From: Desulfobacterales bacterium
GTDB taxonomy: Bacteria > Desulfobacterota > Desulfobacteria > Desulfobacterales > Desulfosalsimonadaceae
Reading direction: 5' to 3'
NCBI GenBank assembly: GCA_018224315.1
Contig: JAGTVF010000140.1
Coordinates: forward strand, 1-9,056
Length of the DNA stretch: 9,056 nucleotides
The notes below the pieces were generated by a model. The model had not been told where the DNA came from. It was given only the letters and a program-made list of their open reading frames with translations, and searched no databases. How positions within the stretch are numbered: the stretch's first letter is position 1; every line of letters begins with the position of its first letter. Positions 1 to 9,056 of the stretch are shown here, in pieces. The position numbers were made by a program, and so were the translations under genes.

Positions 1-1247
1 CAGCTCTCTGGATAAAAGTTGAAAAGATTTCCGGCTGTATCAAAATCCCACTGCCGCCAGGGCGAGATCTGCTTGAGTCCGGGATTTTTATCTGCCTCGG
101 GCTTCAGGGATTGCGATATTTCCATGTACTGCAGGGAGGCCGTATCCCGTATGCGCACAATCCGCGCCTCTGTTCCATTTTCAATGCCCCCGGTATGCAT
201 GCAAACCTGGATGCATTGCCGGTCTGTATCAAAATAGACAGGAATAGCGGCTTTTTCCGGTGAGATGGCAGTAACCGCATTTACTGCGGTTTTTTCCCGG
301 TCCATGCGGTTGACCAGCCGCTCGGTGGTCACGTCTGCCAGGCCGATGCCGTTTGCGTTGCCGTCACTGTCACGGGTGAGATCGCGCACAAAAATCCGCC
401 CCGGACATGGCGGTGCAGAAAAATCACCGGCAATGTCCCGGTGCCGGCCCGTAATATTGGAATCCATGCCAATACCCGATATTTCCTTGCCGATTTGGTC
501 CACCACCAGGATGTCCAGACGGTCAAAGGGAATCTGTCCCATCATGGCCCGGGCACGGGCCAGCAGCTGTTTTTCCCTGTGGATCAGGGTATCCGGGGCA
601 AGGGCTTCAATTGCCGACAATTGCCCGCATCCATCCTCTGTCAGGGCCAGGCCAAAGAGGACCGGCACGTGTTGGAGCAAAACCGCGGCCGCGGTTTCGA
701 TAAAGGCAAAGCCGCGGGCAACCGCAAACCGATGGCAGGCCGCCGCCCCATCCTGCATGCCAAGGCCGATGACCAGCATCTTGCACAGGCCGCTTTCAAT
801 GGGGGCGGAAAATTTGGTGTGGGGCTTGATCCGGTTGACCGGCACAATCCAGTCGGCATCCAGGGCAACAGCGGAAAAATAAAGCGGCAGACCGTCGTCG
901 GTTCTGCCGATTCGGCGGGTATTCATATCCGCACACACCGGCACGCTCAACTGCTGCCCGGTGATCCCCAGGGAAGCCAGCACCCGGGCCTGCCCCCCGG
1001 CGCAGGCACCGCCGTGACTGCCCATGGCCGGTACAATAAAGGGTCTTGCCCCTTTTTCCCGGAAAAATGCTACCAGCCCGGATATGACCGTATCCAGCCG
1101 GTCAATGCGCCGGCTTCCAACAGCTATGGCAATGGATTTTCCGTTCAGGCGCAACGACAGGGGCACCTGGCTGGCCGCAGCCAGGCGGGTTTGCTGTCCT
1201 GGATTCGGAAGCGCGGCGCAGGACAGGTCCTGATAATAGATCGCCAT
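1..1247 (-). CDS. Lactate racemase-domain (DUF2088, LarA-like) protein, C-terminus cut by window edge
   Basis: The frame is open without a stop from ATG at 1247 to base 1, giving 415 residues and no stop codon, so the C-terminal end lies outside the window. Family hallmarks are visible in order: PAMGSHGGA (residues 73-81), PVNRIKPHTKF (136-146), ESGLCKMLVIGLG (151-163), VVDQIGKEISGIGMDSN (248-264) and RDLTRDSDGNANGIGLAD (288-305). These match the DUF2088 family, whose best-known member is the nickel-pincer lactate racemase LarA. H78, H143 and K156 are plausible active-site positions. Many members are not racemases, so the substrate is unknown. No larB/C/E cofactor genes are visible nearby. 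No signal peptide or membrane segment is apparent. The ribosome binding site before ATG 1247 is poor; an in-frame TTG about nine bases upstream and another further up are alternatives, and an in-frame stop lies about 80 bases upstream. The gene follows the ferredoxin terminator, so it probably has its own promoter, but I found no convincing one. Family call is good; function is open. Confidence 0.85.
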   Translation of the reverse strand, partial: MAIYYQDLSCAALPNPGQQTRLAAASQVPLSLRLNGKSIAIAVGSRRIDRLDTVISGLVAFFREKGARPFIVPAMGSHGGACAGGQARVLASLGITGQQLSVPVCADMNTRRIGRTDDGLPLYFSAVALDADWIVPVNRIKPHTKFSAPIESGLCKMLVIGLGMQDGAAACHRFAVARGFAFIETAAAVLLQHVPVLFGLALTEDGCGQLSAIEALAPDTLIHREKQLLARARAMMGQIPFDRLDILVVDQIGKEISGIGMDSNITGRHRDIAGDFSAPPCPGRIFVRDLTRDSDGNANGIGLADVTTERLVNRMDREKTAVNAVTAISPEKAAIPVYFDTDRQCIQVCMHTGGIENGTEARIVRIRDTASLQYMEISQSLKPEADKNPGLKQISPWRQWDFDTAGNLFNFYPES

Positions 1248-1342
1248 TTCCGGCAATGGGAAAAAATCTGGATACAATGGGATCTCGCGGTTGCAATGAG
1301 GGTTTGCACAGGAAAAACGGCAAGATCGTCAAAAAGGCAGTG

Positions 1343-1358
1343 CCGGACCTGTGTCCGG
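1343..1358 (-). terminator. Possible second hairpin behind the ferredoxin terminator
   Basis: A perfect 6-bp stem (CCGGAC / GTCCGG) with a 4-base loop lies just downstream of the main ferredoxin terminator on the minus strand. A run of five T (1331-1335) follows, but only after a 7-base gap. It may be a weak back-up terminator, or a structure in the leader of the LarA-like gene. The stem is seen; the role is inferred. Confidence 0.3.
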
Positions 1359-1363
1359 TGCGG

Positions 1364-1393
1364 AAAACCCCGGCCATGGCGCCATGGCCGGGG
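1364..1393 (-). terminator. Rho-independent terminator of the ferredoxin gene
   Basis: Bases 1368-1393 form a perfect 26-base palindrome: arm CCCCGGCCATGGC at 1368-1380 directly abuts its exact complement at 1381-1393. On the minus strand it is followed at once by TTTT (1367-1364). The stem is very GC-rich and begins 25 bases after the ferredoxin stop codon. There is no T-tract on the plus-strand side, so it acts leftward. With no spacer between the arms, the innermost few bases must form the loop. Confidence 0.85.
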
Positions 1394-1417
1394 CAGAATC
1401 AATGGTTGTGCGATCTC

Positions 1418-1606
1418 TTAGATTTCTTCCACGGTGATGGCACCGGGTTCGCAGACCTCGATGCAGCTTTCGCATCCCAGGCATTCTTCGGCATTGACGG
1501 GAACAGACTTGCCGTCCTGGATTTCAAATACTTCCACCGGGCATACATCCACACACTCTTCACAACCTTCGCATTTTTCTGCGTCAACGGTCACATTAAA
1601 AGCCAT
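1418..1606 (-). CDS. 2[4Fe-4S] ferredoxin (clostridial/bacterial type)
   Basis: This 62-residue protein has two complete cluster motifs. The first is CxxCxxCxxxCP at C12, C15, C18 and C22. The second is CxxCxxCxxxCEP at C42, C45, C48 and C52. This is the classic two-cubane ferredoxin of about 55-65 residues, a soluble low-potential one-electron carrier in the cytoplasm of anaerobes. It is strongly acidic (many Glu, few Lys), as expected for such carriers. Start ATG 1606 is fixed by a near-perfect Shine-Dalgarno AAAGGAG eight bases upstream. The gene has its own candidate promoter and a strong terminator, so it is probably an abundant single-gene transcript. The partner enzymes cannot be named from this window. 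The neighbouring LarA-like gene lies beyond the terminator, so shared function is not implied. Confidence 0.95.
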   Translation of the reverse strand: MAFNVTVDAEKCEGCEECVDVCPVEVFEIQDGKSVPVNAEECLGCESCIEVCEPGAITVEEI

Positions 1607-1614
1607 TTTCAGAT

Positions 1615-1621
1615 CTCCTTT
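1615..1621 (-). promoter_or_regulatory. Strong ribosome binding site of the ferredoxin
   Basis: AAAGGAG on the minus strand lies eight bases before ATG 1606. It is the best Shine-Dalgarno sequence in the window and fits a highly translated small electron carrier. Confidence 0.85.
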
Positions 1622-1692
1622 CTCATTGTCTCAAATTATGATGATATATCGTGGGCCTTTGTCTTCGGCGTTTGCGCTGTAAGATTTTTCTC

Positions 1693-1719
1693 CCTATACC
1701 AATTAAATACTCGAGTCAA
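1693..1719 (-). promoter_or_regulatory. Candidate sigma70-type promoter of the ferredoxin
   Basis: On the minus strand TTGACT (1719-1714, -35-like) is followed after 15 bases by TATAGG (1698-1693, -10-like). Hexamer quality is good, but the spacing is 1-2 bases shorter than ideal. The region is AT-rich against a GC-rich background and lies between the stop of the upstream gene (1743) and the ferredoxin. It would give an untranslated leader of about 80 bases. Transcription could also read in from the upstream operon, since no terminator is evident between the genes. Confidence 0.45.
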
Positions 1720-1732
1720 GGGCCATGATTCG
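1712..1732. repeat. Imperfect inverted repeat overlapping the ferredoxin -35 element
   Basis: CGAGTCA (1712-1718) and TGATTCG (1726-1732) form a 7-base inverted repeat with one mismatch (G-U pairable in RNA) around a 7-base centre. It covers the -35-like TTGACT. It could be an operator for a dimeric regulator. On the plus strand it is followed by ATTTTTT and so resembles a weak rightward terminator, but no plus-strand gene is there to end. Confidence 0.35.
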
Positions 1733-1742
1733 ATTTTTTGTT

Positions 1743-2579
1743 TCATGCCCCTGCAGAACCCAGCAACCCGACAATCCGGCCGGAATCGCGCATTTCGTAA
1801 AACGATATCTTCGGATGGAACTCCCCTGCCGACAGATCCGGCAAGCCGGCTTGTACGTTTTCCGGCAGCCGCTCCGGGATTGTCAGGGTCTCAAAATGTT
1901 CATCAACTGCGGAAAGCACCGCCGGACTGGATGTAATCCAGATTTGCGGGCAATCCGGATCACGCTCGGCCAGGCGGAGCCAGGCCCGGATCCGGGCATC
2001 GGGCATATATCCCCCGGGATCTTCAGACGCGGCCCCAGCGCCGGTGCCGGAACTGTCAGCTAAAAACCCGGAAGCCGGTCCAAAATCACCGCCCTGCCCC
2101 CGGATTCGGGCAAACATCTGTTGTGCCGTCCGATCGGTTACAGCCAGGTCATTTTCCAGTTCCGCTGCCTGGCGGTCAAATTCCTGGGCCATTAACAAAA
2201 ACAGCCGGGCCATGAATACCGGATCCGGCGCTACAGGCTCGTCCTTGCCGCCCTTTAAAATTTCCGTGCTGATTTCCGGTACAAATTCCTGGTTGTAAAA
2301 CCCGGCTTCCGCAAAAGACTTCAGGGCCGCGGCATGTTTCTGGTGCATCTGCCCCCAGTTCTGGTATTGCCGGGCCAGATCCATGAGATTTTTGTCTTCT
2401 CCGTGCACCGGGCGCCGCAAAATGATGCGTCCCTGCCGGTCAAGATCTTCCATGAAAGCCGGGACTGCGCTGTCAGCCGGCTGATAGACCACCGGCGGGC
2501 CGAAACAGGCGCAGCTCTTGTCCGCCCATCTTTCTGTAATAAATGTAAACGGAAAAAATGCAGTTGTTATCTTATTCAT
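1743..2579 (-). CDS. Uncharacterised protein translationally coupled to the CysK-CysRS fusion
   Basis: I do not recognise a characterised family in this 278-residue protein. It starts MNKITTAFFPFTFI and carries a SCACFG segment (C23, C25) followed by VVYQP. This looks like a conserved N-terminal module. The middle (about residues 60-160) is charged and predicted helical, with an LFLLMAQEFDRQAAELENDL stretch. About 160-190 is a Gly/Ala/Ser-rich probable linker. The C-terminal part contains CPQIWITSSPAVLSAV (210-225) and ends in a small hydrophobic tail, GRIVGLLGSAGA. No signal peptide or clear transmembrane helix is seen; the N-terminal hydrophobic run is short. Its ATG overlaps the stop of the upstream fusion gene as ATGA (2576-2579), with GGAG just upstream, so the two proteins are probably made in step. 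The coupling suggests a role linked to cysteine metabolism or to the fusion enzyme, but this is inference only. Confidence 0.8.
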   Translation of the reverse strand: MNKITTAFFPFTFITERWADKSCACFGPPVVYQPADSAVPAFMEDLDRQGRIILRRPVHGEDKNLMDLARQYQNWGQMHQKHAAALKSFAEAGFYNQEFVPEISTEILKGGKDEPVAPDPVFMARLFLLMAQEFDRQAAELENDLAVTDRTAQQMFARIRGQGGDFGPASGFLADSSGTGAGAASEDPGGYMPDARIRAWLRLAERDPDCPQIWITSSPAVLSAVDEHFETLTIPERLPENVQAGLPDLSAGEFHPKISFYEMRDSGRIVGLLGSAGA

Positions 2580-4876
2580 GAGTCTCCGATTTTTTCGTCT
2601 TTGATTTCAACACCGGCCTGCTGAAGCTGCTGCCGGATTTCATCGGCCCGGGAAAAATCCTTTCGGGCCCGGGCCTGATTTCTCTCCCGGATCAGGGCCT
2701 CGATTTCCGGGGAAAGGCTTTTTGAGGCAAAATCAAAAAAGCCCAGCACCCGGTCAATGTCTTCAAATGTTTTCAAAAACTTTTCTGCCTGCTCCCGGGA
2801 GAGCCGTTTTTCAGAAACCAGGGCGTTGATTCGCCGGATTTTCCGAAAGATCGCCGCCATGGCCCGGGGCATGTTCAAATCATCATCCATGGCATTGATC
2901 AATCCCTGCCGGATGTCATAGGCAATCTGGTCGATTTCCTCTGTGGATGCCGCATCGTTTCCGGCCTGATCAACCTGCTGCAGGCCTTCGATACAGGCAT
3001 CAATGCGCCGGATGGCATTTTTGGCCTGGTCCAGGCGTTTCGGGCCGTATTCCAGGGGCTTTCGGTAATGGGCCGTGATCAGCCAGAAGCGGACATCCCG
3101 GGGCGTGTATCCCATGTCCCGGAGATCTTCAAGGGTGGGAAGGCCCTGCTTCTGCGCCCGGGTATCGGACTGTCCGGCGTGCACCTGCTCGCAGTGGACC
3201 CAATAGCGGGCAAGGGGTTTGCCTGTCAACGCCTTGGCAATGGCCCGTTCATTTTCGTGATGCGGAAAAACCAGCTCCCGGGTACTGGTGTGAATGTCAT
3301 AGGTTTCGCCCAGGTGCTTCATGGAAATGGCCGCACACTGAATGTGCCAGGAGGGGCGCACGTTGCCCCACTGGGTTTTGACGTAAATGCCGCGCTTGAG
3401 CTCGGAGAGCCGGGCGCGCTTGAGCAGGGTGAAATCCCTGGGATTGTTTTTCTCGTATTCGTCTAAATCCACCGTGGCCCCGAGCTTGATTTTGTCAATG
3501 TCAATGCCCGACAGCTGCCCGTACTCGGAAAAAGACCCGATGCTGAAATAAAGGGACCGGAGCTTTTCATAGGCAAAGCCCTTGTCATAAAGCCCGGTGG
3601 CAACCCGGACCATGTCCTCCACGTGCTCGCTGGCCCTTGGAAAATGATCAGCCGGCTCGATATTCAAGGCCTCCAGGTCCGCCATGAACCGGTCGATATA
3701 ATAACGGGTGTATTCGGCAAGGGATTGTCCGGCACTTTCCGATCCCTGGATGGTCTTGTCATCCATGTCCGTGATGTTCATCACATGGTTGACATCCAGA
3801 TCCCGGTAGCGAAGATACCGGCAGAGCAGATCGGAGAACACAAACCTGCGGCACTCGCCCAGTTGAATAAGCTTGTTGGCCGTTGGCCCGCAGGTATACA
3901 TGGACACCCGGCCCTTTTGAATGGGATCAAAGGGCATCTTGGACCGGGTCAGGGTGTTGAACAGGTGAATTTCCGCCTTTTTTTTGACCAAAAAACGCGG
4001 CGTGCTCAAATAGCGATCCACGCTGTCGGCAAAAATGGTCACAATGGTGCCTTCTGTCATCTCTGCGGCCAGCCGGGCGGCAATCACCATGGCCGCCCCG
4101 CTGCTCATGCCCACAAACAGGCCTTCTTCCCGGGCCAGACGCCGGGTCATTTCAAAGGCTTCCTCATCATCAATGTTGATTTTCTGATCCAGCCATTTTT
4201 TTTCAAAAATTTCGGGACGATAAGCTTCCTTGAGATTTTTCAGGCCCTGGAGCTTGTGGCCCAGGTAGGGCTCCACCCCTATGATTCGGATGCCCGGATC
4301 ATAGTCTCGGAACCTGCGGGCGCATCCCATCACTGTGCCAGTGGTGCCCATGGTGGCCACAAATGCCGATATTTTTCCGTTGGTCTGCTCAATGATTTCC
4401 TGGGCCGTGCCCTGGTAATGGGCCTGCCAGTTGGCGGCATTGTTGTATTGGTCGGTCATGAAATAGCGGTCCGGGTCTTCGCGGACCAGGCGATAGACCT
4501 CTTCAATGGCCCCGTCCGTGCCCAGGTGCCCGGGGGTAAGAAAAATCTCTGCGCCCCGGGCCTCTAAAATCTTGCGGCGCTCCAGGGACACGGCATCAGA
4601 CATGGCCAGCATGAGCCGGTAGCCCTTTACCGCACAGATCATGGCCAGGCCGATGCCGGTGTTGCCGCTGGTGGCTTCAATAACGGTTTTCTCCGGGGTG
4701 AGTTCCCCGGACTGTTCCCCGGCCTCAATCATGGCCAGGGCCGGCCGGTCCTTGCTGGAGCCGCCGGGATTGACGTATTCGAGCTTGGCAAGAATCCGGA
4801 CGGCCGGATTGGGGTTTAACCGCCGGATCTCCACCATGGGGGTATGGCCGATGGCATCGAGTATGGAATCATGCAT
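2576..4876 (-). CDS. cysK-cysS: Cysteine synthase (CysK/CysM) fused to a cysteinyl-tRNA synthetase-like domain
   Basis: Residues 1 to about 300 are a PLP-dependent O-acetylserine (or phosphoserine) sulfhydrylase: NPGGSSKDRP with the Schiff-base Lys at K42, TSGNT (69-73), phosphate-binding GTTGT (177-181) and SSGAA (258-262). It should make cysteine from an activated serine and sulfide. Residues about 302-766 align end to end with cysteinyl-tRNA synthetase, starting at HLFNTLTR, with no linker. The zinc and cysteine-binding residues are all kept: C329, C514 (SWHIQC), H539 and E543 (FPHHENE), as is NITDMDDK (367-374). The ATP-handling motifs are changed: HIGH is QLGE (338-341), GGGSD is TSTRE (530-534) and KMSKS is DTRAQ (571-575). 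The usual C-terminal GT-x-W end is also absent. The flanking sequence reads through without any frameshift, so these are true substitutions. Classical Cys-tRNA synthesis is therefore doubtful. Start ATG 4876 has AAGGA nine bases upstream. The gene lies 41 bases after tmk and overlaps the next gene by four bases. Confidence 0.93.
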   Translation of the reverse strand: MHDSILDAIGHTPMVEIRRLNPNPAVRILAKLEYVNPGGSSKDRPALAMIEAGEQSGELTPEKTVIEATSGNTGIGLAMICAVKGYRLMLAMSDAVSLERRKILEARGAEIFLTPGHLGTDGAIEEVYRLVREDPDRYFMTDQYNNAANWQAHYQGTAQEIIEQTNGKISAFVATMGTTGTVMGCARRFRDYDPGIRIIGVEPYLGHKLQGLKNLKEAYRPEIFEKKWLDQKINIDDEEAFEMTRRLAREEGLFVGMSSGAAMVIAARLAAEMTEGTIVTIFADSVDRYLSTPRFLVKKKAEIHLFNTLTRSKMPFDPIQKGRVSMYTCGPTANKLIQLGECRRFVFSDLLCRYLRYRDLDVNHVMNITDMDDKTIQGSESAGQSLAEYTRYYIDRFMADLEALNIEPADHFPRASEHVEDMVRVATGLYDKGFAYEKLRSLYFSIGSFSEYGQLSGIDIDKIKLGATVDLDEYEKNNPRDFTLLKRARLSELKRGIYVKTQWGNVRPSWHIQCAAISMKHLGETYDIHTSTRELVFPHHENERAIAKALTGKPLARYWVHCEQVHAGQSDTRAQKQGLPTLEDLRDMGYTPRDVRFWLITAHYRKPLEYGPKRLDQAKNAIRRIDACIEGLQQVDQAGNDAASTEEIDQIAYDIRQGLINAMDDDLNMPRAMAAIFRKIRRINALVSEKRLSREQAEKFLKTFEDIDRVLGFFDFASKSLSPEIEALIRERNQARARKDFSRADEIRQQLQQAGVEIKDEKIGDS

Positions 4877-4917
4877 GTGATTGGGTCCTTATGGCACGCT
4901 TGCCGGCTGTGGGCCAT

Positions 4918-5565
4918 TCAGGGCTGAAAATCAGCTTCAAGCCGGAGCGCAAGTTGTTCAATGATTGCCGCCCGCACCTGTTGCCGGGCCGCGTCTGCTG
5001 CGACCACCCGGATGCGTTCGGAGTTTTCGCGCGCCAGGTCCAGATACCCCTGGCGGACTTTTTCGTGGAACCGGATGGTTTCCATCTCAAACCGGGTTTC
5101 CTGCGAATGGCGGTCACCGGATTGGATCTGCCGCCATGCCCGGGATAGTCCGACTTCGGCCGGAAGATCAAGCAAAAAAGTCAGATCCGGCCGAACACCG
5201 CCCAGAACCAGTTCATTGAAGTCCCGGACGACTTCTGCGGAAATGCCCCGGGCGGCACCCTGGTAAGCCACGGTGGAATCACAGAAACGGTCGCAGATCA
5301 CAATACTGCCCTGCTCCAGGGCCGGCCGGATCACCCGGCTGACATGCTGGGCCCGGTCGGCCTCATAGAGCATCAATTCGGCCATGGGATCCAGGCCGGC
5401 ATTTCCCGGCGACAGCAAAATGGCCCGGATCTGCCGGCCCGCCTCCGTGCCTCCCGGCTCCCGGGTGACCACGCAATGATGTCCCCTGCCCTCAAGATAT
5501 TCCACAATGTCGGGAATCAGGGTGGACTTGCCGGAGCCTTCAATGCCTTCCAATGTAATCAGCAT
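4918..5565 (-). CDS. tmk: Thymidylate kinase (dTMP kinase)
   Basis: This 215-residue protein is of normal length for the family. It phosphorylates dTMP to dTDP with ATP, an essential cytoplasmic step toward dTTP. Visible motifs are the Walker A P-loop GIEGSGKST (7-15), REPGGT (35-40) in the dTMP-binding region, the CDRFCDSTVAYQG segment (91-103) with the DR pair and substrate-binding residues, and a LID-type region (SRAWRQIQSGDRHSQETRFE, 141-160). No key residue appears missing. ATG 5565 begins the conserved MLITLEGIEG strand, so the start is secure although its Shine-Dalgarno is weak (AGAA-like). It lies 42 bases after the HD-domain gene and 41 bases before the CysK-CysRS fusion, which suggests co-transcription. 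Confidence 0.96.
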   Translation of the reverse strand: MLITLEGIEGSGKSTLIPDIVEYLEGRGHHCVVTREPGGTEAGRQIRAILLSPGNAGLDPMAELMLYEADRAQHVSRVIRPALEQGSIVICDRFCDSTVAYQGAARGISAEVVRDFNELVLGGVRPDLTFLLDLPAEVGLSRAWRQIQSGDRHSQETRFEMETIRFHEKVRQGYLDLARENSERIRVVAADAARQQVRAAIIEQLALRLEADFQP

Positions 5566-5607
5566 AAATTCTGCAACAATATTTTTTCAGTCTGCGGTTT
5601 TCATTTT

Positions 5608-6564
5608 TCAGCCTGTGGTTTCCGGCCCGCCCCTGTAGAAAAACCGCTCCAGGGGCTTGTGATAGCCCGTCCATTGTTCGCCTGCATCCTGACTTTCCAT
5701 AAATTCACGGATGCCGTTGATCTTGGCGTCAATCTCGTCAAGATAATTGAGCAATACGGCCTCAAGGGTTTTGGGGGGTTCCGGGGAACCCAGTTCCCGG
5801 CTGCCGTGATGGCTAACCATCATGTGCCGCAGCAAAAGCGCCGTTTGTTTGGGGAAATCCGGAATCTGCCGCACTTTTTCTTCCAGCATTCCCACCCCGA
5901 TGACAATATGGCTGACAAGCCGGCCTTCGCTGGAATAATCAATGCTGGTGTCAAAAACAAATTCATTGATTTTGCCAATGTCATGCAGAATTGCACCGGT
6001 GATCAGCAGATCCCGGTCAATGCCGGAATAATGCCCGGCCACCCGGTCTGCGAGCAGGGCAAGCGACAGACTGTGCTCAAGCAGGCCGCCGATATAGGCA
6101 TGATGCATTTTCTTTGCCGCAGGGGCTTGTTTAAACTGTGCGACAAAGCCAGCATCATTCCAGAAGGCATCGAGCAGTCCCCGCAAAATTTCAGAGGAAA
6201 CAGTTTGCCCGAGAGCTTTGATCCGTTCCAGCATCTGCTCCGGGTTCCGCCGGCTGGCGGGCAGAAAATCAGCCGGATCAGAACCGGTTTCAGCCGCCTC
6301 CAGCCCCTTGACCACCACCTGCAGTCCCCCCCGGTATTCGGAAACATTGCCCTGCACACGGACCACGTCACCGGCTGCGGCCGCATCAGCGATCTGCTCC
6401 ACGTTGTCCCATACAACGCCCCGGACCCGGCCGGTCTTATCCGATAATGCAATGCTCAGATACGGGGCCCCGTCTTTTTTGTGACTCAGCGTCTTTTCCG
6501 CCAGAACAAAGAGTTCGGTTACGGCCTGGCCGGATTTTAGCTGACTGACAAACAGCTTTTTCAT
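5608..6564 (-). CDS. yhaM: YhaM-type OB-fold plus HD-domain 3'-5' exoribonuclease/phosphohydrolase
   Basis: The 318 residues match the architecture and length (about 310-320) of the YhaM family, metal-dependent 3'-5' nucleases. An N-terminal OB-fold nucleic-acid-binding domain covers about 1-90 (PYLSIALSDKTGRVRGVVWD, 34-53). An HD domain covers about 150-290. Metal-ligand motifs are visible: HHAYIGGLLEHS (154-165), ILHDIGK (192-198), SHHGS (251-255) and the terminal Asp in LDEIDAKI (275-282). The start at ATG 6564 (MKKLFVSQLKSGQAV) fits the family N-terminus. An in-frame upstream start at 6654 is rejected because it would lie before the promoter's -10 box. It is the first gene of the putative leftward operon. 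A role in RNA turnover or nucleotide metabolism is likely; exact substrate (RNA or DNA 3' ends) is inferred from the family only. Confidence 0.88.
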   Translation of the reverse strand: MKKLFVSQLKSGQAVTELFVLAEKTLSHKKDGAPYLSIALSDKTGRVRGVVWDNVEQIADAAAAGDVVRVQGNVSEYRGGLQVVVKGLEAAETGSDPADFLPASRRNPEQMLERIKALGQTVSSEILRGLLDAFWNDAGFVAQFKQAPAAKKMHHAYIGGLLEHSLSLALLADRVAGHYSGIDRDLLITGAILHDIGKINEFVFDTSIDYSSEGRLVSHIVIGVGMLEEKVRQIPDFPKQTALLLRHMMVSHHGSRELGSPEPPKTLEAVLLNYLDEIDAKINGIREFMESQDAGEQWTGYHKPLERFFYRGGPETTG

Positions 6565-6612
6565 CAAATGCCTGTCATTTCTGAATTGGCAAAATTTTTT
6601 CCAGCTATTGGC

Positions 6613-6644
6613 TTGACATTTTTTATTTTTCGGTTTTTTATACT
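6613..6644 (+). promoter_or_regulatory. Candidate lptD promoter
   Basis: A consensus -35 TTGACA sits at 6613-6618 in a T-rich tract. The -10 is either TTTATA (6637-6642, 18-base spacer) or TATACT (6639-6644, 20-base spacer). The first has the better spacing, the second the better hexamer. Transcription would start near 6650, leaving a leader of about 90 bases before the chosen lptD ATG. The perfect -35 box supports a real promoter. Confidence 0.5.
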
Positions 6645-6665
6645 GGAAATTCACCTGTGCATCAA
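6637..6665 (-). promoter_or_regulatory. Candidate promoter of the yhaM-tmk-cysK/cysS operon
   Basis: On the minus strand TTGATG (6665-6660) and TATAAA (6642-6637) are separated by exactly 17 bases. This is a good sigma70 match located about 70 bases before the HD-domain gene's ATG at 6564. Its -10 box is the same six base pairs as one candidate -10 of the divergent lptD promoter. Confidence 0.5.
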
Positions 6666-6737
6666 GGTATTATTCAAAAGCTCGGATCAGACCGGTCCAC
6701 AACCCTTTGGCGGCGTCAGGCGCGGCCATCAGCGCAA

Positions 6738-9041
6738 ATGTTGCAAATGCCCATGTTTCGATTTTTACGGAAACAAACCTGTCTGTGGATGGCCGCCATA
6801 TGTGCAGCGGTGCTGATGACAAATGCCGCTGTCGCCCAGAAAATCTCTGATCCTGCGCTGACCAGCGGCGGCTGGCAGGTCTTTGCCGACCGGCTCACCT
6901 ATGATCCGGAAACGCAGTTGTACAAGGCCCTGGGCAACGTATTGATCATTCAGGGCCAGAAAGAATTAACAGCAGACTTTGCCACCCTTGACCAGGCGGC
7001 CAAAACGGCCAAAGCCGAAGGCAACGTGGTACTGATATCCGGCGGTGACCGAATGTCCGGACAGCGCCTGGAAATGAACATGGCCGACAACACCGGCACC
7101 CTTTACGACGGATTTGTGTTTATCCGGGAAAATCAGTTCCGCATCCGCGGCGATCGCATTGAAAAAACCGGCGAGGCCTCCTACCGGGTTCATGAAGCCT
7201 CTCTGACCACCTGCGAAGGCGATTCGCCGGACTGGCAGATCACCGGAAAGGAAGTGGACGTCACCATAGAGGGCTATGGATATGTTTCCCATGCGGCTTT
7301 CCGGGTTCGGCAAATGCCCATGCTGTATATGCCCTGGTTCATGTTTCCGGCCAAGACCGAGCGGCAAAGCGGCCTGCTGCCGCCCAGTGCCACTTATTCC
7401 AGCCGCAACGGCATTGAATACACCCAGCCGTATTTCTGGGCCATATCCGATAACACGGATGCCACCTTTTATTATCAGCACCTGCAGGAGCGGGGTGAAA
7501 GACTGGGCGCTGAATACCGCTACATGCGCTCTGAGGATTCCAAAGGCATTTTGATGATCGACGGGTTTAAAGACCGCAGAATCGATGACGGCACCGAGCA
7601 AGCAGAAGAGCTCTGGGGATATGATAACGACAACGCGCCACGGCCCAATGACGACAGATACTGGTTTCGGGCAAAGATCGACCAGGAGATTTTCGGCGGG
7701 GCCATGGCCCGGCTGGATCTCGACGTGGTCAGCGACCAGGACTATCTCCGGGAGTTTTCCGGCGGGTACATGGGATATGATGCTGCAGAAGAACAGTTTT
7801 TTTCCGAGTTCGGGCGGGATCTCGATGATGAGAACAATCCGGTTCGCACCAACCGTCTAAATATCAACAAGATCTGGAATTATCACGTCTTAAACACAGA
7901 CCTGGCCTGGTATGATGATGTAATCAAGCGGCGGCAAAGCGATACCAATGATACCCTCCAGCGGCTTCCCCGGGTGGGATACAGCGCCCTCAAACAGCCC
8001 CTGCTCGATGTTCCCGGCTTTTCCAATCAGATGCTGTTTGCCTCCATGGACAGCGAATACACCTATTTTTTCCGGGAAGACGGACTGACCGGCCACCGGA
8101 TGGATCTCCACCCCCGAATCTATCTGCCGGTCCGCCTTTATCAGAGCTTTACTTTTGAGCCGTCACTGGGCTTCCGCCAGACCGCCTGGTATGTGGACGG
8201 CGACCGGGAGGATTACACCGCCGGCGCCGAGCGCTACAAGCACCGGGAAATGTATGACATCGGTGCTGAGCTCTCCACTGAGCTAAGCCGGGTGTTTTCC
8301 GTTGACAGCGAAAATGTGGAAAAGATCAAGCACCTGATCATTCCCTTGCTTTCCTATGAGTATGTGCCCGAGTCCGATCAGTCGGAATTTCCCTTTTTTG
8401 ATGAAAACGACCGGTATCAGCAGCGCAACCGCATGGCGTTTTCCCTTACCCAGTTTCTGACCTCCAGGCGCACGGTTGCCGGCCCGGAAAAACCAGAAGA
8501 ACCAGAAAAAAATAACGGGCCCGAACACCGCTACAATCAGTTTCTGCGCTTTTATATCGAGCAGGGCTATGATTTCAACCAGAGCCAGGACCCGAATCTG
8601 GCCTTTGAACCCCTGTTTGCCGAACTCGACTTCACCCCGGCCCGGCCGGTTACCCTGCGCGCAGACGCCCAATGGAGCCACGAGGCCGACAAATTCATCT
8701 CCACCAACCTCTCTGTTCATTACCGCAGCAGCCGGGGTGACAGGCTTCACGCCGAATACCGCAACAACCGGGAATATCAATCCGAGGTGGAATACCGCAA
8801 TACCAACCAGCAGGCCCGCCAAAGCCTGTATTTGGAAGCCGAAACCCCAGTAACCCGCCGATTGACCCTTCTGGCGCATTACGAGCGAAGCCTGGAAACA
8901 GATGAAAGCATTGAAACCGGCCTGGGTTTTCGCTGGCGATCCCAGTGCTGGACCCTCCAGGTTCGGTATGAAAAAGAGGGCGAGGACCATGACATCGCTT
9001 TTATGATCAATCTATACGGGCTTGGTGAATTCGGTGATTGA
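6738..9041 (+). CDS. lptD: LPS assembly outer-membrane protein LptD (OstA/Imp)
   Basis: The protein is about 767 residues from this ATG, in the normal range for LptD. With LptE it forms the outer-membrane translocon that inserts lipopolysaccharide into the outer leaflet. A signal peptide is clear: basic MFRFLRK, then hydrophobic LWMAAICAAVLM, then a cleavage site after AVA. An LptA/OstA-like periplasmic beta-jellyroll follows (about 40-145; WQVFADRLTYDPETQLYKALGN and AEGNVVLISGGDRMSGQRLEM). Next comes the barrel entry MLYMPWFMFPAKTERQSGLLPP and a long beta-barrel rich in aromatic alternating strands. The chain ends in a strand before TGA 9039-9041. A Pro/Glu/Lys-rich loop (GPEKPEEPEKNNGPEH) lies around bases 8478-8527. 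Apart from the signal peptide, only C159 and C737 (SQCW) are present, enough for one disulfide. The start could be ATG 6738, 6747 or 6753; none has a good ribosome binding site. The upstream in-frame GTG at 6657 is too near the promoter and would precede the signal peptide by a nonsense-like stretch. Confidence 0.93.
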   Translation: MLQMPMFRFLRKQTCLWMAAICAAVLMTNAAVAQKISDPALTSGGWQVFADRLTYDPETQLYKALGNVLIIQGQKELTADFATLDQAAKTAKAEGNVVLISGGDRMSGQRLEMNMADNTGTLYDGFVFIRENQFRIRGDRIEKTGEASYRVHEASLTTCEGDSPDWQITGKEVDVTIEGYGYVSHAAFRVRQMPMLYMPWFMFPAKTERQSGLLPPSATYSSRNGIEYTQPYFWAISDNTDATFYYQHLQERGERLGAEYRYMRSEDSKGILMIDGFKDRRIDDGTEQAEELWGYDNDNAPRPNDDRYWFRAKIDQEIFGGAMARLDLDVVSDQDYLREFSGGYMGYDAAEEQFFSEFGRDLDDENNPVRTNRLNINKIWNYHVLNTDLAWYDDVIKRRQSDTNDTLQRLPRVGYSALKQPLLDVPGFSNQMLFASMDSEYTYFFREDGLTGHRMDLHPRIYLPVRLYQSFTFEPSLGFRQTAWYVDGDREDYTAGAERYKHREMYDIGAELSTELSRVFSVDSENVEKIKHLIIPLLSYEYVPESDQSEFPFFDENDRYQQRNRMAFSLTQFLTSRRTVAGPEKPEEPEKNNGPEHRYNQFLRFYIEQGYDFNQSQDPNLAFEPLFAELDFTPARPVTLRADAQWSHEADKFISTNLSVHYRSSRGDRLHAEYRNNREYQSEVEYRNTNQQARQSLYLEAETPVTRRLTLLAHYERSLETDESIETGLGFRWRSQCWTLQVRYEKEGEDHDIAFMINLYGLGEFGD

Positions 9042-9056
9042 TCGGTGAAACCATCC

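Follow-up and report, generated by a model that had tools for sequence, protein, structure and literature searches.

What does a cysteine synthase gain from carrying a cysteinyl-tRNA synthetase (CysRS) that seems unable to charge tRNA? The question is raised by one open reading frame (ORF) in a 9,056-nucleotide stretch of Desulfobacterales DNA (assembly GCA_018224315.1, contig JAGTVF010000140.1, positions 1 to 9,056; hereafter the window), whose host genome comprises 384 contigs and is 91% complete. The ORF joins a CysM-type, pyridoxal phosphate (PLP)-dependent synthase half to a C-terminal pseudo-CysRS part of about 460 residues (Table 1). Our preferred reading, which we would put slightly short of an even call, is that the pseudo-CysRS likely binds tRNA-Cys and adjusts cysteine synthesis rather than charging tRNA. 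Sulfate reducers thus have a likely main producer of cysteine that databases often list under an activity it probably lacks. Should the tRNA reading prove true, a single polypeptide would link translation demand directly to amino acid synthesis in sulfide-dwelling bacteria.

The fusion is neither a sequencing or assembly error nor a broken gene, because its open frame and its motif losses recur in relatives at 56–95% identity; an earlier note on this DNA had also judged a sequencing error unlikely. It is under purifying selection (ratio of nonsynonymous to synonymous substitution rates, dN/dS, 0.07–0.15). Gene fission was rejected in the five genomes in which it was checked: the fusion pieces in G237 and G243 stop at contig ends, and the genes in G081, G086 and G191 have inserts in one frame. 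These last three have an additional segment around residue 275, within the CysM half; from stop to stop the frames are 819 and 862 aa in loci L215 and L218, and L217 is cut. The closest named relative, from Desulfosalsimonas propionicica (95% identity across residues 300–766), is annotated as cysteinyl-tRNA synthetase, and database names of fusion proteins differ, some being cysteine--tRNA ligase or cysteinyl-tRNA synthetase and others cysteine synthase. The CysRS names may be explained by the NCBIfam cysS model TIGR00435, on which the window's protein scores 351 bits (cut-off 340) and whose cut-off is also passed by 12 of 22 fusions from other classes of the phylum.

Residues were compared in three partly overlapping sets of fusions. 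Alignment A2 holds 83 fusions, chosen from about 98 distinct fusion ORFs and compared with 71 canonical CysRS; the choice passed over L055 and many close relatives, and the contig-cut L122 and L130 were omitted. The near set is the best 120 of 6242 database matches. The Syntrophobacteria-type set is the best 120 of 7968 matches to the Thermodesulforhabdus norvegica protein (lengths listed, 769–836 aa), labelled after the names its members bear, among them Syntrophobacter, Desulforhabdus and Desulfacinum; one database name among such matches is Acidobacteriota (P0143, binning unchecked). The reference for residue numbering was E. coli CysRS, whose sequence in the K-12 record was aligned to the fusion.

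The offset between the window's protein and E. coli CysRS is constant at 301 for C28–H40 and at 305 for W205–S270, so there is no gap within either segment. This bears out the earlier note, which had matched C329, C514, H539 and E543 to the zinc ligands and read QLGE, TSTRE and DTRAQ as gap-free replacements of HIGH, GGGxD and KMSKS. Loss of these ATP motifs recurs among the fusions of A2. H37 together with N or H at position 40 was kept in 4/83 fusions but in 71/71 canonical CysRS (HIGN counts as normal because the fourth letter is N in 57 of these and H in 14), the GG of GGGxD in 3/83 against 69/71, and KMSKS in 0/83 against 67/71. Relaxing the last motif to KMS[KR]S raised the fusions to 13/83 (canonical, 67/71), and K269 was kept in about 2% of fusions. 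All three motifs occurred together in none of the 83 fusions, compared with 65/71 canonical CysRS. The particular replacements, whose conservation across homologous fusions the earlier note had proposed to examine, proved to be shared in part: among the 120 proteins of the near set, 66 keep H37, 100 have E at 40 and 118 have R at 228, and the sequence at the KMSKS loop is variable. Judged from these alignments, QLGE and DTRAQ as such are local and not general in fusions.

A separate CysRS accompanies the fusion. The second canonical cysS for which the earlier note had called was found in the host, on another contig than the fusion and with HIGH, GGGKD and KMSKS. Among the matches listed, a separate CysRS-like match (33–39% identity) was present in 55/60 genomes, host included, and no genome lacked it among the 37 with completeness of 90% or more and contamination of 5% or less; the five genomes where none was seen (G002, G012, G030, G033, G035) are 61–86% complete. 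The CysRS fetched from 20 relatives all had CCHE, HIG[HN], GG and KM[SA]KS; in three, the combination was HIGN plus KMAKS. In 22 chosen genomes of other classes, counted from family matches and not motifs, there were two cysS-family matches in 22/22, one being the fusion and the other, in G292, G356 and G384, spanning part of the model only. Because an intact separate cysS is present in the host and in 20/20 relatives, and 0/83 fusions keep the three ATP motifs, the CysRS-like half very probably does not charge tRNA, which supports the earlier proposal that it performs no normal aminoacylation.

What has been kept is the part that reads the anticodon, which the earlier note had not considered. 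A 2025 analysis of the 1u0b complex, in the part of the article accessible to us, lists R427, D436, W432 and R423 as contacts of G34 (PMC12684709). This set is present in 83/83 fusions and in 120/120 of the near set, with W, F or Y allowed at 432. In the Syntrophobacteria-type set R423, R427, W432, D436, R439 and D451, the E. coli equivalents of the window's anticodon set, are each found in 120/120. Canonical CysRS have 69 invariant positions. The 4 of these that lie in the anticodon domain are kept at 1.00, whereas mean retention at the 63 catalytic ones is 0.73 for fusions and 0.47 for the Syntrophobacteria-type set.

The zinc site, by comparison, is where the earlier note had looked for function, proposing a zinc-dependent cysteine sensor or carrier. 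The complete CCHE set, intact in the window, occurs in 60/83 fusions and in 109/120 of the near set, where C28 and C209 are each kept in 120/120 and E238 in 109/120, and where the pocket has been rebuilt with conserved Q513 (119/120) and R533 (118/120; both fusion numbering). It occurs in 0/120 Syntrophobacteria-type fusions, in which C28 is replaced by T in 118/120, C209 by A in 99/120 and E238 by V in 92/120, yet these proteins remain full length. Zinc-dependent sensing is thus not supported as a general function. A HisZ-like arrangement, in which free cysteine in the zinc pocket would feed back on the CysM half and tRNA would be irrelevant, draws on the conserved and rebuilt pocket of the near set and on HisZ itself, a synthetase paralogue that mediates histidine inhibition (accessible parts of PMC9437257 and PMC9734150). 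As it would also leave the anticodon set without a role, we regard it as unlikely across the fusions; for the window's class, with its zinc pocket kept and rebuilt, sensing of cysteine is a possible function on this pattern of conservation.

The catalytic part also has fusion-specific features. Residues 494–497 are a four-residue insert, which canonical CysRS do not have. Ten signature residues (R344, K438, T468, L471, R487, L490, L493, K494, G496 and T501) are each present at 85% or more in all three fusion sets and at no more than 13% in canonical CysRS. Because this signature is present regardless of the state of the zinc site, it may mark an interface. A candidate gained Cys, C562, was dropped as not invariant (C in 42/83 fusions and 2/71 canonical CysRS). 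An interface-like signature would suit a purely structural role, in which the half holds CysM in an oligomer or recruits it to a different protein, with the anticodon residues serving folding. That explanation, which we think quite unlikely, sits poorly with anticodon contacts that are invariant across the three sets, much of the catalytic pocket having drifted meanwhile, and with standalone CysM relatives (in G048, G055 and 18/198 phylum genomes), which imply that the half is dispensable for the CysM fold.

The synthase half belongs to the cysKM subfamily (TIGR01136, 347 bits in the protein scan, cut-off 344.15). The earlier description as CysK holds at that level and is refined to CysM-type, since cysM scores above cysK, both below their equivalog cut-offs. 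The catalytic residues of the PLP lysine, the SGNT loop, the GTxGT phosphate loop and the S of SSG are intact, with K42, S70, G71, N72, T73, G177, T178, G180 and S258 in 83/83 fusions and T181 in 82/83. At the position of K213, a candidate phosphate contact, E. coli CysM has R, E. coli CysK has a gap, and the standalone relatives L057 and L074 have K. We take the mycobacterial O-phosphoserine enzyme to have Arg at the equivalent place.

Genome content points to the same substrate. In 22 chosen genomes of the phylum, the fusion is the sole cysKM match in 14 (E 1e-55), and cysE was not found in any of those 14 at E 1e-15, a search that was positive in 10/14 control genomes; no cysE match reached the family cut-off, and the E-value thresholds were set by us. 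A second cysKM gene occurs in all seven of the 22 genomes with cysE and also in G378, where no cysE was found. Among the 37 good genomes (host included), the fusion is alone as a cysKM match in G017, G047, G050, G056 and G058, and cysE gave no match below 1e-20 in these five. G018, G024 and G059 pair a sole fusion with a cysE match, and another cysKM match is present in the remainder, the host having a cysE-cysK pair on contig C366; these four genomes speak against O-phosphoserine, whose probable assignment rests on one lysine together with missing cysE matches. Because the fusion is often the only CysK/CysM-type match and cysE is then not found, we infer that in many species it is the primary cysteine synthase, supplying the larger part or the whole of cellular cysteine and probably using O-phosphoserine. 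That the CysM half might convert its substrate directly on tRNA was rejected by reasoning, as CysM needs a free carboxylate.

The fusion is widespread. It was present, whole or in pieces, in 56/60 genomes (not seen in G028, G048, G054 and G055). In a class sample, which includes the host and contains one order, 216/241 genomes matched at E 1e-100 and 206 at 1e-200 or below. In a phylum sample 98/198 genomes matched at 1e-95, comprising 79 fusions (whole or part), 18 standalone CysM-like proteins and 1 CysRS. G098, G108, G112 and G192 each have two full or nearly full copies, 51–64% identical to the window's. In a contig scan, fusions made up 11 of the 80 loci listed, the rest being mostly canonical CysRS; among these matches, all 11 were in records titled Deltaproteobacteria or with Desulfo- names, which does not imply absence elsewhere. 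A quick, unrooted tree of 59 of the 83 fusions and 35 of the 71 canonical CysRS separated canonical from fused CysRS domains by one branch (Shimodaira–Hasegawa-like approximate likelihood ratio test, SH-aLRT, 100), a pattern that fits a single origin of the fusion.

How might the two halves work together? The CysM half would make cysteine, probably from O-phosphoserine, while the pseudo-synthetase half would recognise the anticodon of tRNA-Cys and dock it; how much tRNA-Cys is available, free or charged, would then set how active the synthase half is. The zinc pocket retained in the window's class may also sense cysteine or the cysteinyl end of Cys-tRNA. Taken whole, this would be a tRNA-Cys-gated synthase, regulated in cis via a fused dead synthetase and serving as the main cysteine maker in many members of the phylum; a head that reads tRNA-Cys would be what remained after the ATP site was lost and, in one branch, the zinc site as well. 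We advance that joint claim as a possibility, with somewhat less confidence than tRNA binding that adjusts synthesis.

Several observations weigh against these proposals. The permutation test of anticodon against catalytic retention (p 0.005) has n=4 positions and is a pointer only. Catalytic positions are far from lost, 27/63 being kept in at least 95% of fusions, 42/63 in the near set and 23/63 in the Syntrophobacteria-type set, which leaves room for binding of cysteine or another ligand there, and the anticodon residues may have been kept because folding needs them. The C-terminal GT-x-W end, which the earlier note had reported gone, is indeed missing in the window and in many near relatives; its loss is not a general trait, as W458 is retained in 35/83 fusions and 118/120 of the Syntrophobacteria-type set. 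Gene context gives no help, because no tRNA-Cys gene was found by the fusion in the window and 87 loci scanned, so that a dedicated neighbouring tRNA-Cys was rejected, and the neighbours are mostly class-specific. In the predicted structure (predicted template modelling score, pTM, 0.71) the packing of the two halves is uncertain. tRNA binding, gating and synthase activity are all predictions here.

Docking could also serve channelling: by keeping tRNA-Cys close to the canonical CysRS, the half would let newly made cysteine pass on for charging. This would account for docking without ATP motifs and for the persistent pairing with a separate CysRS. We consider it improbable: there is no sign of a complex with CysRS, and the genes lie apart, at 1.62 and 2.51 Mb in the single-contig genome G045 and on different contigs in the host. 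Least probable of all is that the half is an active CysRS despite its divergence, or a CysRS-like ligase with a different acceptor, since the TIGR00435 scores and the scattered KMS[KR]S and H37 retentions in its favour are met by the absence of the full motif trio from every A2 fusion, the near-total loss of K269 and the intact-motif CysRS in all 20 genomes checked.

The fusion resembles several known systems in part. With CysRS (TIGR00435) it shares the fold, the full length with DALR and anticodon domains, the anticodon set and, in the window's class, the zinc ligands; it differs in lacking the three ATP motifs together, in being joined to a cysteine synthase and in having a separate CysRS alongside. 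With the O-phosphoserine-dependent CysM (3dki) and O-acetylserine sulfhydrylase B (2bht) it shares the fold, the PLP lysine and the TSGNTG and phosphate loops, and it is also present without a cysE found in many genomes; it differs in its C-terminal pseudo-CysRS and in that its substrate is predicted. On the reading preferred here it would join the synthetase-derived regulators. Neither HisZ, the class II regulatory subunit of ATP phosphoribosyltransferase, nor MshC, the cysteine ligase of mycothiol synthesis, is known to have an anticodon domain. HisZ is alike in its workings only, as a non-charging synthetase paralogue that serves, and regulates, synthesis of its own amino acid (PMC9437257 and PMC9734150, accessible parts); it is a separate subunit of the HisRS family, whereas the fusion is of the CysRS family by Pfam, NCBIfam and fold. 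MshC is likewise a CysRS paralogue acting outside translation, an ATP-dependent ligase according to the accessible part of PMC9437257, and is shorter (its model has 411 positions and that of cysS 466; chains of 413–414 residues); on its model, TIGR03447, the fusion scores 175 bits against a cut-off of 485. MshC fold matches ending at model residue 715 were dropped as evidence on the anticodon domain, several true CysRS structures ending there too.

CysRS* of the Desulfobacterales is a second CysRS paralogue from the same order, which charges selC* tRNA and has no anticodon domain (PMC9437257 and PMC7609411, accessible parts). The fusion differs in that CysS_C is present; the domain that CysRS* dropped is its best-kept part. 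The host also encodes a third CysRS-like protein of 416 aa (L207:6305-7555; contig C351 of G000), beginning just downstream of a 302-aa ORF, with HIGN and KMSKS and with D at the second zinc-ligand place (WNVQD). It matches positions 2–399 of 466 of the cysS model, without the anticodon domain, and by its sequence could be either a relative of CysRS* or a further paralogue. The surrounding 9 kb yielded no tRNA gene, and SelB-wing_2 had no match in the host genome in a search that was positive in just 1/14 controls. A literature search aimed at the fusion or such paralogues, with subscription journals mostly outside its coverage, found nothing on the fusion; for DVU0663 it gave a mention as cysK only, and the accessible parts of PMC3431258, PMC5424206, PMC12684709, PMC9437257, PMC7609411, PMC2922099 and PMC9734150 do not mention the fusion.

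Table 1. Features of the window, with residue numbers of the fusion protein
Feature	Positions	Strand	Remarks
CysM-CysRS-like fusion ORF	2576..4876	(-)	766 aa; relatives found
CysM-type PLP domain (PALP)	4025..4864	(-)	residues 5-284
PLP lysine K42	4751..4753	(-)	83/83 fusions
K213 in QGLKN loop	4238..4240	(-)	83/83 fusions; candidate phosphate contact
CysRS-like catalytic fold (tRNA-synt_1e)	3020..3931	(-)	residues 316-619; Pfam, NCBIfam, fold
Zinc ligand C329 (E. coli C28)	3890..3892	(-)	alignment
QLGE at HIGH position	3854..3865	(-)	residues 338-341; alignment
Fusion-specific segment	3374..3418	(-)	residues 487-501 (R487, L490, L493, K494, G496, T501)
Zinc ligand C514 (E. coli C209)	3335..3337	(-)	alignment
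TSTRE at GGGxD (E. coli GGGSD) position	3275..3289	(-)	residues 530-534; alignment
Zinc ligands H539, E543 (E. coli H234, E238)	3248..3262	(-)	alignment
DTRAQ at KMSKS position	3152..3166	(-)	residues 571-575; alignment
DALR_2 domain	2735..2899	(-)	residues 660-714
CysS_C anticodon-binding domain	2591..2719	(-)	residues 720-762
Anticodon set R732, R736, F741, D745, R748, D760	2597..2683	(-)	alignment; G34 contacts from accessible part of PMC12684709
278-aa ORF	1743..2579	(-)	no Pfam/NCBIfam match; start codon overlaps stop of fusion
tmk (dTMP kinase)	4918..5565	(-)	upstream neighbour of fusion, mainly within class
Nickel-pincer cofactor-dependent isomerase, group 22	3-1277	(-)	NF052515, 446 bits; open at window edge

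Inference of function from the neighbouring genes was rejected, as these are mostly class-specific. Homologues of the 278-aa ORF are poorly conserved and adjoin the fusion in 31/35 stretches showing it; the ORF was seen at 28/34 near loci, 1/40 far loci and 3/11 named loci, some of the stretches being short. With the same limit on stretch length, tmk was seen at 30/34 near, 1/40 far and 4/11 named loci.

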